Shown: piece after piece, positions 1,311 through 32,065 of the stretch
Layout: each line of letters begins with the position of its first letter
Position numbering within the stretch: position 1 is the first letter of the stretch
NCBI GenBank assembly: GCA_947644645.1
Contig: CANSAF010000005.1
Coordinates: forward strand, 1-64,000
From: an uncultured Sporosarcina sp.
GTDB taxonomy: Bacteria; Bacillota; Bacilli; Bacillales_A; Planococcaceae
Length of the DNA stretch: 64,000 nucleotides
Direction of reading: 5' to 3'
Made by a program: the position numbers and the translations under genes
Notes under the pieces: generated by a model
The model's input: the letters and a program-made list of their open reading frames with translations, nothing else
Told to the model about the DNA's origin: nothing
The model's database searches: none

Positions 1311-3142
1311 TGGGAGTAAATCTAGAGGAAATTAAAGCAGAGTTAGATGGTATTGATCAAGACCTAATCAGTTCGTTTAATGTATTGGATGAAGTAGACC
1401 CAAAAAAGTTTTTTGGATGTACAAGCTTAGTAGAGATTGAAATTAAAATTTGTGGGAAGCCAGCTCTATTAACGGTTGGCTTCCCTAAAAATTTCCCTAA
1501 TGAAATCCCAAGATTCTATGATACTAAAAATCAATTTGGTGATATTCCCCATAAATTAAGTAACGGTTATTTATGTTTTACAAGAAGTGAATCCCTTCTT
1601 ATTGATGTAAGGTATCCTGCCTCAATTTTATTAAACTGTTTAGATAAGGTTATTGAATTGATAGAAGCTGGTGTTAAAGGGGAAAATAAAGAAGACTTCC
1701 TGAAAGAATTTGAAGTATATTGGGGTGGGTTTCTGACCATTTATGCTCATATTGATACAACTGAAACAACGTTAAGAGAAGTAGATTTATGGAGTAAAAA
1801 AGTGGATGAAGATTTTTTAATGGTAGCCGCTGAAAAAACTGTAAGAATAGAAGATGTAATCCAAAGTATTTTTGGATTGGATATAAAAATAGCGACTAAG
1901 TACCGATGCTTGTACGTTCCATTAAAAGAAGGAACCTTTTTGCTACCTCCAATAAATAGTGATTGGAGTTTTGCTGAATTAAAGGATAATATATTCTCTA
2001 ATCTATCTGAAGAAAATAAAAGTAGGTTTTATCGGATTGTGAACAGGGCAGTAAAAGATGTTAGTCCTATTTTTGAATATTTGATAATTGGTTTACCTAG
2101 TTCAAATAAGAATGTTGCATTATTTGGTTGTGGGATAGATGGGAATATCATTAAACTTAATTCTTTCAAGAAAAAAAGTAAAGTTAAAAAACAAATACAT
2201 CCGTTTGTGTTAAAGCCTAAAGATACAAATTTGTATAAAGCAATGATTAAGAGGTGGCATCCTGAATATCTCTTAAACAGAACTGGTGGGAATCGACAAC
2301 TTAAGGATAAACATATATTAATTGCAGGAGTAGGCTCAGTAGGAAGTGAAGTTGCTATACGTTTAGCAAAAGCCGGAGTTAAAAAGTTATCATTGGTTGA
2401 TTTTGATGATATGGCATTTGAAAATGTTCATCGTCACGTACTTGGTATTGATCAGGTTTTTCTTGCTAATGATGATTTTTTTTATGAAACTCCAAAAGTA
2501 TTCGGATTAAAATCTGAAATAAATAGAAAATATCCTTTTACTGAGGTTGAAACACATTTTAAAAGCCTATTCACTTTTATGGAAGAAGTAAAAATATGCA
2601 AAAATGACATCGATTTAATTATAATTGCTATAGGTTCTCCGAATAAAGAGATGAGGATTAATAGAATGTTGTTCAAACTTCCTGATCCACCACCTACAAT
2701 CTATACTTGGGTCGAACCGCTAGGTATAGGCGGGCATACCCTAGTTACGTTAAATGGGAAAAAAGAAGGGTGTTATCAGTGTTTATTTAAATATGATGAT
2801 GAATCCCCTATTTATAACCGTTCGGCTTTTGCAAAGCCTGGACAAGACTACTCAAAATCAATAACAGGATGTGGTTCGGTATTCACCCCTTATAATTTCT
2901 TAGATAGTGAGCGGTCGGCTATTTTAACAGTGGAAACAGGTATAAAACTATTAATGGGGAAAATGGATGGGAATCCATTGCTATCCTGGAAGGGAAAGGA
3001 TGACCTATTTGAAGAAAGTGGGTATAAAACAACTTTCAGATATAATTTTTCTGTTGAAGAGTTAAATGAGAGGAAGTATTTGTATGAAAACGATGAGTGT
3101 CCAGTGTGTTTTAAAGTAGGAGTGGATATGCATAGACAGTAA
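1310..3142 (+). CDS. cap2: CBASS Cap2, E2-E1 fusion ubiquitin-transfer-like protein
   Basis: Ancillary protein of type II CBASS. Cap2 enzymes use an E1-like adenylation domain and an E2-like domain to attach the CD-NTase C-terminus to a cellular target, which primes the synthase. The N-terminal ~150 residues look like an E2 fold with the candidate catalytic Cys89 in NGYLCF. The C-terminal half is a ThiF/E1 domain: nucleotide loop GVGSVG (about 340-345), VDFDD after the second strand, and candidate catalytic Cys521 in TGCGS. CxxC pairs at 488/491 and 597/600 probably bind zinc. The 610-aa length fits the family. Translation is coupled to the synthase by the TAATG overlap. Confidence 0.9.
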   Translation: MGVNLEEIKAELDGIDQDLISSFNVLDEVDPKKFFGCTSLVEIEIKICGKPALLTVGFPKNFPNEIPRFYDTKNQFGDIPHKLSNGYLCFTRSESLLIDVRYPASILLNCLDKVIELIEAGVKGENKEDFLKEFEVYWGGFLTIYAHIDTTETTLREVDLWSKKVDEDFLMVAAEKTVRIEDVIQSIFGLDIKIATKYRCLYVPLKEGTFLLPPINSDWSFAELKDNIFSNLSEENKSRFYRIVNRAVKDVSPIFEYLIIGLPSSNKNVALFGCGIDGNIIKLNSFKKKSKVKKQIHPFVLKPKDTNLYKAMIKRWHPEYLLNRTGGNRQLKDKHILIAGVGSVGSEVAIRLAKAGVKKLSLVDFDDMAFENVHRHVLGIDQVFLANDDFFYETPKVFGLKSEINRKYPFTEVETHFKSLFTFMEEVKICKNDIDLIIIAIGSPNKEMRINRMLFKLPDPPPTIYTWVEPLGIGGHTLVTLNGKKEGCYQCLFKYDDESPIYNRSAFAKPGQDYSKSITGCGSVFTPYNFLDSERSAILTVETGIKLLMGKMDGNPLLSWKGKDDLFEESGYKTTFRYNFSVEELNERKYLYENDECPVCFKVGVDMHRQ

Positions 3143-3158
3143 TAATAAAAATATATAT

Positions 3159-3626
3159 TTGCTACCGGATAATAGATTGTTGTATATACGACCAGAAGTA
3201 ATTGGAAAGATGTTCAAGTACAAACAGGTAAACTTGATGGATAAAGAAGCAGGAGGCATACTTGTTGGAAGAATATTGGTGGAAGGCAATAATATTATTA
3301 TAGATGATATCTCCGAACCGATGCCAACTGACAAAAGAAAAAGAAATAGCTTCAGTCGGGGACCTGATGGACATCAAGAATATATGAATGAATCTTTTCA
3401 GAGAGAAAAAGGGTGTTGTTTTTATCTTGGGGAGTGGCATACTCATCCCGAAAAGGTTCCTAATCCTTCATCTATCGACAGGAAAGATTGGGAACGATTA
3501 TTAAAAGTAGGATTTGAATCAGGATGCCTATTTTTCATAATAGTAGGTATAGATGATTTGAAAGTTTGGTATGGGCAAGTAGAGAAGTTAGTAATAGTAG
3601 AACTAGAGAGGTGGGTAAGAAAGTGA
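3159..3626 (+). CDS. cap3: CBASS Cap3, JAMM/MPN isopeptidase
   Basis: Metal-dependent peptidase that in type II CBASS removes the CD-NTase from its conjugates, opposing Cap2. The JAMM zinc signature is complete: Glu in KEAGG (about residue 30), H-x-H-P in EWHTHP (94-96), then P-S-x-x-D (Asp107) and W. Length about 155 aa is usual. The start is uncertain. The frame is open from 3120 but holds no ATG or GTG before the conserved core; the first accepted codon is TTG 3159, which has no ribosome site. A good AGGAG lies at 3118-3122, nine bases before an ATA codon at 3132, so either a rare ATA start or translational coupling from cap2 is possible. The end overlaps cap5 as GTGA. Confidence 0.85.
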   Translation: MLPDNRLLYIRPEVIGKMFKYKQVNLMDKEAGGILVGRILVEGNNIIIDDISEPMPTDKRKRNSFSRGPDGHQEYMNESFQREKGCCFYLGEWHTHPEKVPNPSSIDRKDWERLLKVGFESGCLFFIIVGIDDLKVWYGQVEKLVIVELERWVRK

Positions 3627-6703: not shown

Positions 6704-6790
6704 ATAATAAAAGCGACAAATACACAAACATTCATGAATTTCGTGGTTATTGCAATTAACGTGTTTGTTTGTGCCTGTCACTTTGTATTT

Positions 6791-6961
6791 ATATTTCAGT
6801 TAGAATGGATATAGATAGTAAAGGAAGGAAGAGCTTAAACTCTTCCTTCTCGCAGCCTCAGCCGTACAGGTGGTGGTTGTTAAATAAGAGTTATTTGCGG
6901 TAACCCCCCTTTTGCTTGCTACGGCGCTAGGTGGTTTTCTTTTTGTCTAAAAAGTTTTCTG
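6791..6961. repeat. Degenerate copy of the toxin-antitoxin-like locus at 27.6-27.9 kb
   Basis: About 170 bases match 27628-27811: the same TAGAAT -10 element (6801-6806), the same GGAAGGAAGAG hairpin, the same GCAGCCTCAGCCGTACAGG core and the same GGTGGTTTTCTTTTTGTCT end. On the minus strand it still encodes the basic tail of the small protein found at 27731-27877 (KKKTT, a stop, then R-R-S-K-Q-K-G-G-Y-R-K), but with one T missing from the T run and a TAG in place of an Arg codon. The N-terminal half is gone. The -35 of the antisense promoter is also degraded. Confidence 0.8.
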
Positions 6962-6966
6962 AAAGA

Positions 6967-7008
6967 GATGCGCCGCCAAAAGTTGTGGTGGAGGCTGACG
7001 GAGAATAA
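6967..7008 (+). pseudogene. Lipoprotein-gene remnant (DAPPK piece)
   Basis: Fourteen codons reading DAPPKVVVEADGE and a stop match the intact lipoprotein gene at 6221-6703; by hand count 32 of 39 bases agree and most differences are silent. It abuts the degenerate toxin-antitoxin-like copy directly, so a recombination joined two unrelated pieces here. Confidence 0.7.
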
Positions 7009-27518: not shown

Positions 27519-27614
27519 TCCAGCTAAAATTATGTGCTAAATAGTGTTGGTACGCCTAAATGATTATTCGCTTGATTAACAGGTGAAAGTCACTTGACAT
27601 TGTTTTTCCACAAC

Positions 27615-27643
27615 TTGAAATTGGAATATATCTCAGTTAGAAT
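27615..27643 (+). promoter_or_regulatory. Promoter of the candidate antisense RNA
   Basis: TTGAAA (27615-27620), exactly 17 bases, TAGAAT (27638-27643). It points rightward into a segment that has no forward reading frame but overlaps the 3' end of the small minus-strand gene. Confidence 0.65.
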
Positions 27644-27649
27644 GGATAT

Positions 27650-27787
27650 AGATAGTAAAAGAAGGAAGAGCGCGAACCCTTCCTTCTCGCAGCCTCAGCC
27701 TCAGCCGTACAGGCGGTGGTTGTCAATTAATTATTTGTGTTGAGAACCACCCTTTTGCTTCCTACGGCGTCGGGTGGTTTTCTTTTT
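27650..27787 (+). ncRNA. Candidate antisense (antitoxin-like) RNA
   Basis: A transcript from the 27615 promoter would run about 138 bases to a rho-independent terminator with arms AACCACCC (27745-27752) and GGGTGGTT (27772-27779) and a T-rich tail. It carries a 5' hairpin (GAAGGAAG 27661-27668 with CTTCCTTC 27679-27686). Its last ~57 bases are complementary to the end of the small minus-strand gene, and that gene's mRNA, if it ends at the same 5' hairpin, would pair with the whole RNA. The core is also conserved in the degenerate copy at 6.8 kb. Existence of the RNA is inferred from sequence only. Confidence 0.55.
27657..27686 (-). terminator. Likely terminator of the small minus-strand gene
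   Basis: The GAAGGAAG/CTTCCTTC stem is followed, reading leftward, by TTTTAC. In the degenerate copy the stem is kept and even lengthened, which argues that the structure matters. Confidence 0.5.
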
Positions 27788-27877
27788 GTCTAAAAAAGTT
27801 TTCTGAAGGAAATGCGCACTTAAAACGCGTGTAATTCCTTTCAGTACTTCTTTTAAAAACTCAAGAAAGATTTCCAT
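27731..27877 (-). CDS. Small basic amphipathic protein (candidate type I toxin-like peptide)
   Basis: 48 aa. An amphipathic helix (MEIFLEFLKEVLKGITRVL) leads into a strongly basic tail (KKKTTRRRRKQKGG). A near-perfect ribosome site (AAAGGAGGTGAT, complement at 27882-27893) stands seven bases before ATG 27877, so translation is very likely. The reading direction converges on the candidate antisense RNA, and the antisense terminator hairpin lies inside the last third of the gene. This resembles the layout of txpA/ratA, bsrG/SR4 and fst loci, but the peptide itself has no long transmembrane stretch and is not one of those toxins. It is too short for usual gene calling. Confidence 0.65.
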   Translation of the reverse strand: MEIFLEFLKEVLKGITRVLSAHFLQKTFLDKKKTTRRRRKQKGGSQHK

Positions 27878-28103
27878 AGTTGATCACCTCCTTTCCTCAT
27901 AAAAGAGAAAAGGATAAAATGTTGTGACAACTATCCACCCATATACTAGCATATTTCAGGAGATTAAGTGACAGTTTTAGACACGGGATTGAGTTGTTTT
28001 TGGAGACGCAAGGGGACAGTTCCTTTGTGTTCCGGTGCTCATTTATAAAGGATTTACTACACAGTGTACCTGTCCCCGCGTGTCCAGGTGCAGCTTTTCC
28101 CTT

Positions 28104-29055: not shown

Positions 29056-29229
29056 TTTCAAGTGTTTGATTTGAAAAATGGTAAAGCTTTTTATGGAAAA
29101 TGGAGAGGAGATTTTAAAAGAATGAAGGTGTAATGCAGTTTGAGCGAGTAAAAATCTTGTTTGTGTACAAATTAAGAAAGTCTTACAAAATACGTGAAGG
29201 CTGAATCGATTTAGGTGGGGACGTTTGGA

Positions 29230-30273
29230 ATGAAAATGGTTGATAACGAATATGAACAGACGTTGATCGTTGAAGAAGCTGAAAAGAATCCTGTCGAGAA
29301 AAAAAGAGTTTATCTGTTAATAAGTTGTTTTGTGCTTGTCATCTTGACGCTTATTTACGGTCTTGCCACAGGGTCGGTAACCTTAACGATGAGCGAGGTT
29401 GTGAATGGACTTTTTGGCGAAACAGGAACGATGGAACATCAAATTGTTTGGAATTTACGTTTGCCACGGCTTTTAACAGGTCTTCTCGTGGGGATGTGTC
29501 TAGCTGTTTCAGGTGGAATTTTACAAGGAATTATGCGGAACCCGCTCGCTGATCCAGGGATTATTGGTGTTTCTTCGGGCGCAGGACTCGTCGCAGTTTC
29601 GACGATGTTGATATTTCCAGCTTATACAGGGCTTGTGCCTGTTGGTGCGTTTATTGGTGCTTTTATTGCAGCGGCATTTGTTTATGTTTTGGCATGGAAT
29701 GGCGGGGTTGCGCCGTTACGTTTAATCCTTGCAGGTGTTGCGATTAACACACTTTTAGGTGCACTGACATCAGGTGTAATGATTGTCTATAGCGATAAAG
29801 TGCAAACGGTTTTGTCATGGTTAATGGGTGGATTGAGCGGAAAAAGTTGGCCGCATTTACAAATGATTTTGCCTTATGCAGTGATCGGACTGATTTTATC
29901 GCTTTTTGCTTCGAGGTCTGTCAATATTCTTCGCTTAGGAGACGATGTAGCCAAATTACTCGGCTACAATGTTGAAAAACATCGTTTCTTATTGCTGCTA
30001 TTAAGTACATTTTTGGCAGGAGCAGCGGTTAGTGTAGCGGGGTTATTAGGATTTGTTGGGTTAGTTGTTCCGCATATTGTTCGTTTATTAATCGGCAATG
30101 ATTATAAGTTTTTATTGCCAATATCGGCTTTACTTGGCGGAGCGTTAGTTGTTTTTGCGGATACGGCAGCAAGAAGTTGGTTCGAACCAATTGAATTACC
30201 TGTTGGTGTGTTACTAGCCGTAATTGGTGCGCCATTCTTTTTATATTTATTAAGATCAGGAAAAGTGATGTAG
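29230..30273 (+). CDS. Haem/iron-siderophore ABC transporter permease (FecCD family)
   Basis: 347-aa integral membrane protein with about ten helices and the family marks LRLPRLL, NPLADPGIIGVSSGAG, GLVVPHIVRLLIG and a DTAAR motif late in the chain. ATG 29230 lies ten bases after AGGTGGGG; a GTG start at 29215 would be inside it. First gene of an operon: permease, binding protein, ATPase, ferrochelatase. Its setting among haem genes suggests haem as substrate, but an iron-siderophore is possible. Confidence 0.9.
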   Translation: MKMVDNEYEQTLIVEEAEKNPVEKKRVYLLISCFVLVILTLIYGLATGSVTLTMSEVVNGLFGETGTMEHQIVWNLRLPRLLTGLLVGMCLAVSGGILQGIMRNPLADPGIIGVSSGAGLVAVSTMLIFPAYTGLVPVGAFIGAFIAAAFVYVLAWNGGVAPLRLILAGVAINTLLGALTSGVMIVYSDKVQTVLSWLMGGLSGKSWPHLQMILPYAVIGLILSLFASRSVNILRLGDDVAKLLGYNVEKHRFLLLLLSTFLAGAAVSVAGLLGFVGLVVPHIVRLLIGNDYKFLLPISALLGGALVVFADTAARSWFEPIELPVGVLLAVIGAPFFLYLLRSGKVM

Positions 30274-30285
30274 GAGGAAAATGAC

Positions 30286-31239
30286 ATGAGAAAATTAATG
30301 ATTGCAGCGATTATGATGGGGCTTTTATTCGTAGTGGCGGCTTGTGGAAAAACGGAAGAGAAAGTAGAAAAGATTGAAAAAGAAGAAATAGAAGAAGTAG
30401 CGGAAGGTATTACGGTAACAGATTTACAAGGCAATACAGTGGAATTTGATAAAGCGCCAGAACGCATTGTGTCTTTAATCGCTGGTGATTTAAATACGCT
30501 TTATGATTTAGGGGCAACGGCAGTCGGTCGTCCGGTTATTCGTGGGAAAATGAGTGAAGAAATTGCGGCGATTGAAGAAGTGGGTACGTCAAATGATGTC
30601 AATGTCGAGAAGATTGCAAGTTTAACGCCAGATGTTGTCATCGCACATCCACAGTTAAATAAAGATGCGATTCCAGCGTTGGAAGAACTTGGTATTGGTG
30701 TGATTCAAATGGGCGCAAATTCAATTGATGGTGTGAAAGAGTCGATTGAAATTCTTGGAAAGCTTGTTCAAAAAGAAGAGAAAGCGGCTGAATTGATCGC
30801 AGAAATTGAAGAGAGATCAAAAGGCGAGCAAGAAGAAGCGCTTCGTACATTGGTGATTTTTGGTTCTGCAGGAAACTGGATGGTTGCATTACCAGACTCC
30901 CTATCAGGCAATATGTTAGAGGCTGTTGGTGGGTATAATATCGCGGAAGATTATGAAAAACTAGAGCGATTCCCGCAATATGCGCAGCTCGATATGGAGA
31001 AAATTATTGAAGCAGATCCAGAAGTGATTTTCTTTATTACAGCTGGACCACAGGAAGAAACGGTGAAAGCTTTTACAAGTGAAATGGAGCAAAACCCTGC
31101 TTGGAATAATATTCAAGCTGTAGCAAAAGACCAATTTATCAGTTTGCCGAATGATTTATTTGGAGCAAATCCGGGTTCACATATTATCGAGTCTTTAGAT
31201 TATTTACATGAAACATTAGCGGGAATGTCTAAAAAATAA
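30286..31239 (+). CDS. Haem/iron-siderophore ABC transporter binding lipoprotein
   Basis: 317-aa cluster-A-III type solute-binding protein. Signal peptide with lipobox VAACG, an acidic/Lys linker, then VTDLQGNTVEF, APERIVSL and LTPDVVIAH, the family pattern. Paralogous in role to IsdE at 41010, though quite different in sequence. Twelve bases after the permease gene with AGGAGG as ribosome site. Confidence 0.9.
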   Translation: MRKLMIAAIMMGLLFVVAACGKTEEKVEKIEKEEIEEVAEGITVTDLQGNTVEFDKAPERIVSLIAGDLNTLYDLGATAVGRPVIRGKMSEEIAAIEEVGTSNDVNVEKIASLTPDVVIAHPQLNKDAIPALEELGIGVIQMGANSIDGVKESIEILGKLVQKEEKAAELIAEIEERSKGEQEEALRTLVIFGSAGNWMVALPDSLSGNMLEAVGGYNIAEDYEKLERFPQYAQLDMEKIIEADPEVIFFITAGPQEETVKAFTSEMEQNPAWNNIQAVAKDQFISLPNDLFGANPGSHIIESLDYLHETLAGMSKK

Positions 31240-31255
31240 GTGAGGGTGATGAAGA

Positions 31256-32065
31256 TTGGTGCAAAAATTAACCGCTGAAAATATCGTTTACAAGCAGTCA
31301 CCGACTTTTTCATTAGAACGGATTTCTTTAGAATTTCCACCCGAGCAAGTGACGAGTATTATCGGTCCAAATGGCTCTGGAAAATCGACTTTTTTAAAAG
31401 TGCTAACGAATTTAATCAAACCAGATGAAGGCGTTGTCGTCATTAATGATCAATCGGTTGCGCGCATGAAAGCCAATGCGCTCGCGAAGAAAATGACGAT
31501 GCTTTCGCAAGTACAAAATAATGATTTGGAGTTAACTGTGAAAGAACTGATTTCACATGGGCGTTTGCCGCATCGAAAATGGTATGAAAAATTAACATCA
31601 GAAGATATGGCAACGGTAGAATGGGCGATTTCAATTACGAACTTGGAACATTTAAAACATAAGCCGATTCAAGAATTATCGGGAGGAGAACGACAACGTG
31701 CTTGGATTGCGATGGCAGTTGTCCAGTCTCCATCGATTTTATTATTAGATGAGCCGACGACATATTTAGACATTTCCCATCAACTGGAAGTCATGGAACT
31801 CGTTCGGTATTTGAATGAAAAATTAAATATGACAATTGTGATGGTCTTACACGATATTAATCAAGCGGCAAAATATAGTGATCATTTAATCGTGATGAAA
31901 GACGGTGAAATGGTGAAAAGTGGGCATCCACTCGAAGTGATGAATGAAACATTGTTTCGAGAAGTCTTTTCGATTCATGCAAAAATTGTAAAAGAAGACG
32001 GTGTCCCAACTTTTACCGCAACTGGGTTAGTGGAAAGTAAAGTGAAAGAAATTCCAAGAAAATAA
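31256..32065 (+). CDS. Haem/iron-siderophore ABC transporter ATP-binding protein
   Basis: 269-aa FecE/FhuC-type ATPase: Walker [10 protein letters not shown], signature LSGGERQR, Walker [10 protein letters not shown] with the family [11 protein letters not shown]-loop LHDINQA. Start is TTG 31256 or GTG 31259 downstream of GAGGGTGA. A second ATPase of the same type is at 42940. Confidence 0.92.

Follow-up and report, generated by a model that had tools for sequence, protein, structure and literature searches.

The window, as we call the whole stretch of 64,000 nucleotides (nt) analysed here, comes from an uncultured Sporosarcina sp. (contig CANSAF010000005.1; assembly size 3.36 Mb) and carries a small locus that is read below as a candidate type I toxin-antitoxin-like module. 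A 48-codon frame on the minus strand, preceded by the strong ribosome site AAAGGAGGTGATC, is faced by a convergent promoter on the plus strand, and each of the two predicted transcripts would end at a hairpin (Table 1). The plus-strand hairpin, AACCACCC..GGGTGGTT, occupies 27745-27779 and is followed by TTCTTTTT. A promoter scan returned two promoter-like sites in the region (shuffled mean 0.9), and a terminator scan that required loops of 3-8 bases and five T in eight listed neither hairpin and reported two other sites (shuffled mean 0.5). The parts that the first-pass annotation had named, i.e., the frame with its ribosome site, an amphipathic helix, the promoter TTGAAA-17-TAGAAT, two stem-loops ending the transcripts and a decayed second copy in the window, were all recovered. 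The locus is real and conserved.

Table 1. Features of the candidate module and of its decayed copy, in window coordinates
Feature	Coordinates	Strand	Evidence and remarks
Recurring unit (both promoters, both terminators, open reading frame (ORF))	27603..27953		DNA similarity to other copies spans ~27603-27954 at most; flanks unrelated
Antisense-RNA promoter TTGAAA-17-TAGAAT	27615..27643	+	Score 10/12; at least 9/12 at the equivalent place in 19/23 core copies
Predicted antisense (candidate antitoxin) RNA, ~138 nt	27650..27787	+	Predicted from promoter and terminator; ~133 nt overlap with predicted sense RNA
Antisense terminator AACCACCC..GGGTGGTT and T run, within peptide-tail codons	27745..27787	+	Helix 4, 97.8% of cells paired; low synonymous divergence
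Sense promoter, extended -10 TGcTAGTAT (27943-27951)	27936..27953	-	Start site ~27936 from spacing
5' leader arm GGGTGGATAGTTGTCAC	27924..27940	-	Helices 1-2, permutation test, alignment; first bases precede predicted start; distal arm lost in window copy
3' untranslated region (UTR) arm TTGACAACCACCGCC, pairing partner of leader	27712..27726	-	Helices 1-2, permutation test
Hairpin sequestering the Shine-Dalgarno sequence (SD)	27889..27914	-	Helix 3, 81.6% of cells paired; SD at least 3/5 paired in 28/29 folds
48-amino-acid (aa) amphipathic basic peptide (candidate toxin)	27731..27877	-	Coding signal, hydrophobic moment, phrog_6429 match (E 3e-8)
Sense terminator hairpin, then short T run on minus strand	27659..27688	-	Helix 5, 92.1% of cells paired; 5/7 pairs changed on both sides
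Decayed copy	6790..6973	-	84% identical; lacks the leader and the 5' half of the ORF; an internal TAG; by eye no recognisable antisense -35

The peptides of the 29 copies listed are 45-54 aa long, and the consensus of 21 members (alignment A1) reads MExFLEFLKEVLKGIxRxxSAHxFQKxFLExKKTTxRRRKQKGGSRxK. The window peptide has no match in Pfam or NCBIfam at E values up to 10, the A1 members have only single weak matches there (0.05 or worse) and none in PADLOC up to E 1, and a search of solved structures returned no match for the peptide. By these comparisons it belongs to none of the curated transmembrane toxin families tested, in line with the first-pass view of an unrecognised family. All 21 A1 members match phrog_6429 (best E 2.6e-11), the window peptide does so over its full length (residues 1-48), and members from viral contigs reach E 1.4e-23; judged by this similarity, phrog_6429 is the same peptide family. 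The library lists its function as unknown, and RNA features are outside the library's scope. Other PHROGs are each matched by one to three A1 members only, the best of them being phrog_271 (see below). In the open literature searched, the tail motif and the phrog name returned no paper, and none of the titles listed for other queries names the family.

The hydrophobic moment of the window helix is 0.70, a value reached by 0.2% of 500 shuffles, and the first 30 residues form an amphipathic helix in all 24 peptides compared (0 to 4.2% of 500 shuffles equal the value). The tails are basic, with a net charge of +4 to +12. Twenty-three of these 24 peptides stay below 1.6, the customary Kyte-Doolittle threshold over 19 residues for a transmembrane helix, with L052:88-240 as the sole exception.

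The frame shows an excess of silent changes. Among 23 core copies (253 pairs), pN/pS (nonsynonymous over synonymous divergence) is 0.34 in codons 1-31, compared with 0.80 and 1.34 in the shifted frames, and differences at codon positions 1, 2 and 3 number 2033, 1453 and 3276. Most copies were collected through the similarity of their proteins, which lowers pN and biases the ratio downward; the comparison with shifted frames partly meets this objection. The pattern indicates that the reading frame evolves as a protein, under selection, as expected of a small toxin-like ORF (less than ~60 aa). A lack of frame conservation, one of the refuting outcomes named in the first-pass annotation, was not observed.

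An antisense promoter scoring at least 9/12, with a 17-nt spacer, recurs at stop+71 to +88 in 19 of the 23 core copies, and L020 and L023 have an 8/12 site at the same place. Among six viral or plasmid-type copies it occupies that place only in L060; L086, outside those six, shows TTGACC-17-TATATT by eye. The sense promoter, an extended -10 (TGnTAnnnT) with no clear -35, lies at ATG-74 to -92 in 26 of 28 copies (not in L016 and L020), a count that stands without a shuffled baseline. The antisense terminator is housed in codons 32-45, within those for KKTTxRRRKQKGG, where synonymous divergence is 0.13, compared with 0.40 for codons 1-31 (Mann-Whitney p 0.0006). In L059 the peptide tail is different and the hairpin is kept with other letters, CCCGCGCTT with AAGCGAGGG, with one mismatch (by eye). 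From sequence alone, the recurring promoter and terminator predict an antisense RNA that overlaps the mRNA.

The structure of the mRNA was modelled on alignment A2, which holds 28 copies from leader to sense terminator; five helices were drawn on the row of L043. Duplicates (L011, L017, L021, L022, L044, L054, L056, L058) and copies that were truncated, at contig ends or fetched later were excluded from A2 and from the counts, and the near-duplicate L026 from A2 only. The model pairs 91.7% of cells, compared with 40-56% when partners are slid by 1-3 columns. Helix 1 (distal leader with 3' UTR) has 95.0% of cells paired and 4/6 pairs changed on both sides, helix 2 (GGGTGG.TGGTTGT with ACAACCA.CCACCC) 91.9% and 2/13; helix 3 (the SD hairpin) and helix 4 (the ORF-tail hairpin) have 2/7 and 2/8 pairs so changed. 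Cells changed on both sides number 75, where shuffles give 26.9 and slides no more than 23, and the covariation score is 0.280, against at most 0.132 when slid. Shuffles give a mean of 10.3 both-side-changed pairs (the observed 15 reached in 3/500) and 45.1 further pair types (the observed 49 reached in 13/500). The slide control favours the model because the structure was drawn from one row. Independent of that row, the cognate leader/3' UTR energy averages -38.1 kcal/mol compared with -31.0 kcal/mol for permuted partners, and none of 20000 permutations reaches the cognate value. Kinship among copies can inflate both controls. Independent weight for the pairing comes from far copies that, by eye, appear to keep it with different letters: L060, on a Niallia plasmid (GTGGTATGC with GCATACCAC; CAACTAC with GTAGTTG; GGTATGC with GCATACC), the first L052 copy (GGTTGCTAT with ATAGCAACC) and L051 (TAACTG with CAGTTA).

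Minimum-energy folds of the whole message, with start sites placed by rule and counts that stand without a shuffled baseline, join leader and 3' UTR through 8 bp or more in 25 of 29 copies (not L008, L009, L015 and L016) and hide the SD in 28. In folds that omit the 3' UTR, 19 of 29 show 5 bp or more between leader and ORF tail. Together, prediction and covariation support a structured mRNA for the candidate toxin with a hidden ribosome site. Rfam gave no match at gathering score on the window, and six matches at lax threshold, far below gathering scores, were taken as chance. On 16 loci the only Rfam match was a Bacillaceae-1 RNA (RF01690, 80.4 bits) outside the unit, at L028 1058-1124, ~380 nt upstream of that copy's start codon, which is perhaps a coincidence.

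Relatives of the peptide are sparse and scattered. The window peptide has matches in 24 of 261 genomes of the order (35 places, among them three interrupted by an in-frame stop and several matching only part of the peptide) and in 5 of 151 genomes of the family, and alignment A1 in 6 of 398 genomes of the class, each count including its own genome; alignment A3 matches 4 of 24 genomes in the family of G470. Up to five places occur in one genome (G209). Named hosts of the eight first loci are Sporosarcina (2), Filibacter, Oceanobacillus, Metabacillus, Lederbergia, Cytobacillus and a Pseudogracilibacillus metagenome-assembled genome. Viral contigs yielded 2 loci with alignment A1 and 9 and 2 loci in two further scans, with overlapping sets; scans with the window peptide and with the Niallia peptide found no relative there. 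Two viral-contig loci, L086 and L088, adjoin a 374-aa ORF that has the look of a tyrosine recombinase/integrase by eye. Far relatives lie on two plasmids, of a Bacillaceae strain (record without annotation) and of Niallia circulans (frame annotated as hypothetical protein). In tblastn searches two core peptides matched no phage or plasmid and two L052 peptides no phage; one L052 peptide had three plasmid matches, two of which (H1, H2) were examined. The third, in Azoarcus (49% of query, E 0.8), was set aside as a chance match.

A 1151-base probe with the locus at its centre has matches in 58 of the 61 genomes of the genus, split into blocks, namely the upstream gene (1 or 3 to ~170), the unit (~254-605) and the downstream gene (from ~760). 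In G110, G122 and G134, each a single contig, over 1.2 Mb separates the two flanking genes, so that only the unit, including its two promoters, can be what recurs. No empty site could be demonstrated at the window locus, since the flanking genes lie apart in relatives.

The window peptide finds four places in its own genome at E<0.001, namely the window copy, a complete one on C37, one truncated at its 5' end (C5:79645) and the decayed copy at 6900, and alignment A1 adds two weak partial places. A tree built from 24 units plus an outgroup, five of whose nodes have support of only 0.27-0.53, puts the three G209 copies at three different positions. The C37 copy groups with the Pseudogracilibacillus copy and the G237 copy (support 0.94) and not with the window copy, to which the truncated copy is sister (support 0.93). 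The truncated copy (L002 1492-1725) has lost its leader and SD and keeps both hairpins and an antisense promoter, TTGAAT-17-TAGAAT by eye; it is a possible orphan antitoxin. Multiple places per genome, decay and the scattering of same-genome copies among clades bear out the earlier suggestion of an itinerant, often lost element. Two further arrangements were observed. On one viral contig (L052 85-1467), three diverged paralogues form an array beside a 409-aa ORF (2136-3365) that may resemble the arbitrium receptor AimR. At L013 3001-3600 a second tandem copy with an in-frame TGA lies directly downstream, and by eye the flanking sequence is repeated too.

We consider the locus a type I toxin-antitoxin-like module with a peptide family lacking a named function, at a probability of roughly three in four. 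Most likely it represents a new family and a distinct variant of such modules, with toxicity and transcription predicted. Frame conservation, recurring promoters and terminators, and leader-3' UTR covariation are read from the sequences themselves; together with the related loci they uphold the small ORF, convergent antisense gene and 3' overlap that the first-pass annotation had proposed. The reading also leans on several places per genome, on plasmids and viral contigs, and on same-genome copies in different clades. The variant is best read as joining a txpA/bsrG-like 3'-overlapping antisense RNA to an mRNA that closes on itself as hok does and to a peptide that is amphipathic and, in most members, has no transmembrane stretch.

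For the mechanism, we infer transcription of both strands, duplex decay, an unstable RNA and a toxic peptide at the membrane. The sense strand would give an mRNA of ~280-300 nt for the amphipathic basic peptide, and this mRNA would fold shut, with the SD within its local hairpin and the 5' leader paired to the 3' UTR. From a promoter beyond the sense terminator, the opposite strand would give an RNA of ~138 nt that overlaps the mRNA in its 3' part and stops at the terminator built into the basic-tail codons. Because the antisense RNA carries GGTGGTTGTCA, the same as in the family's mRNA leader, it would compete for the leader's 3' UTR target. The long duplex is a presumed target of RNase III; decay of the mRNA through a 3'-overlapping antisense RNA would be analogous to the B. 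subtilis systems. If the short-lived antisense RNA were lost, the peptide would be freed to act at the membrane through its amphipathic helix.

In hok/Sok and aapA1/IsoA1, the mRNA is shut by pairing of its 5' and 3' ends. The present family resembles them in this closure and in a possible alternative pairing of leader and ORF (the 19 of 29 folds above), but its predicted antisense RNA lies over the 3' part and leaves the leader uncovered, and the peptide is different. In the B. subtilis type I systems txpA/RatA, bsrG/SR4, bsrE/SR5 and yonT/SR6, antisense RNAs pair with the 3' end over ~100-140 bp and act via mRNA decay, and SR4 also refolds the ribosome site, according to the parts of the account drawn on here (PMC6562991). 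The same parts describe a small ORF, a 3'-end antisense RNA, a sequestered or near-perfect ribosome site and mobile-element association (PMC6562991); the window family shares these traits, with the antisense RNA as a predicted one. Unlike those systems, the window family has no curated match, mostly lacks a transmembrane stretch, codes its antisense terminator in the basic tail, and has a long leader-3' UTR closure of a kind that does not figure in these parts of their description (PMC6562991). Mutually exclusive mRNA folds, as predicted here, are proposed for translation control in timP/TimR, which is enterobacterial, has a pseudoknot and differs in antisense geometry (PMC11228461).

Several observations weigh against a type I module. 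Membrane type I toxins have a transmembrane stretch (PMC8309996), unlike the window peptide, whose Kyte-Doolittle maximum over 19 residues is 0.99. One of the 21 A1 members weakly matches phrog_271 (anti-termination N-like; E 4.4e-4), which would suit RNA binding, and the gathering of copies by protein similarity lowers pN. Each of the 19 antisense promoter scores, taken singly, is reached by 0-17% of shuffles; L016 and L027 have no such promoter there and their best site elsewhere, and L051, L052a-c and L059 lack it as well. On the antisense side, 6 of 10 viral or plasmid-type copies have an extended -10 farther out (0.97 expected from shuffles). The number of pairs with any both-side change, 15, compares with 14 in the +2 slide, and this measure adds little. 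The SD stays hidden without the 3' UTR in 28 of 29 folds, so loss of the 3' UTR by itself would not, on this prediction, expose the ribosome site. The window copy itself lacks ~13 nt of leader, and its predicted start falls inside the arm. Of the 28 closure energies its own, -25.3, is the weakest; leader bases that precede the predicted start are counted in this figure.

The window copy may be weakening. The missing ~13 nt lie between the sense -10 and the GGGTGG arm and include the distal arm; other alignment rows hold this stretch wholly or partly. The fold of the window copy from its predicted start keeps 9 leader-3' UTR pairs. Under one explanation, compatible with the preferred one, the window copy is a decaying remnant of a family that functions elsewhere, and the leader deletion, a mismatch in the remaining arm, the weak closure and the truncation of two of the other three clear own-genome copies are consistent with this. 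Against it, the copy retains its ORF, SD hairpin, both -10 elements and both hairpins, and pN against near relatives is low (e.g., 0.07 with L015). We regard outright decay as somewhat doubtful. An explanation with poorer prospects is that the same antisense control serves a non-toxic small protein, such as a signalling, antimicrobial or immunity peptide or a nucleic-acid-binding regulator. The near absence of transmembrane stretches, the basic tail, the phrog_271 match and the L052 array beside a possibly AimR-like ORF would fit such a role, but the family is sparse, sits in several places per genome and is often decayed, and a double translation lock would seem costly for a harmless product; we hold this improbable. 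That the locus is a selfish repeat of the miniature inverted-repeat transposable element type, with the leader/3' UTR complementarity as terminal inverted repeat and the peptide incidental, would account for inverted arms at several places per genome with unrelated flanks, but is very unlikely given promoters and a sense terminator that recur outside the arms and a frame that appears to be under selection. A housekeeping role, weighed already in the first-pass annotation, was set aside in view of the sparse distribution and the lack of a curated family match.

Next to the unit lies an imperfect 66-bp palindrome, GGGGACAG...CTGTCCCC (28012-28077), unique in its own genome as an exact pattern (arms exact, gap 25-54); GGGACAGG tags resembling it were noted by eye beside L043 and L012. 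Beyond the flanking gene, 29215-32065 holds what by eye looks like an iron-siderophore ABC transporter set (permease, binding protein, ATPase).

Returning to the type I reading, we tentatively propose, with less confidence than in the module as such, that the family embodies a separate type I design. The antitoxin RNA would mimic the mRNA leader, the mRNA would switch between leader-ORF-tail and leader-3' UTR pairing, the terminator in the basic tail would keep peptide and RNA control from diverging separately, and the truncated copy at C5:79645 could act as an orphan antitoxin. If confirmed, the module would add a new peptide family and RNA architecture to type I toxin-antitoxin loci, on Bacillales chromosomes, viral contigs and plasmids. 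The leader-3' UTR covariation predicts how an antisense RNA confined to the 3' end could control translation at the 5' end, and the tail that codes for both peptide and terminator would show clearly how two constraints can bear on the same piece of DNA.
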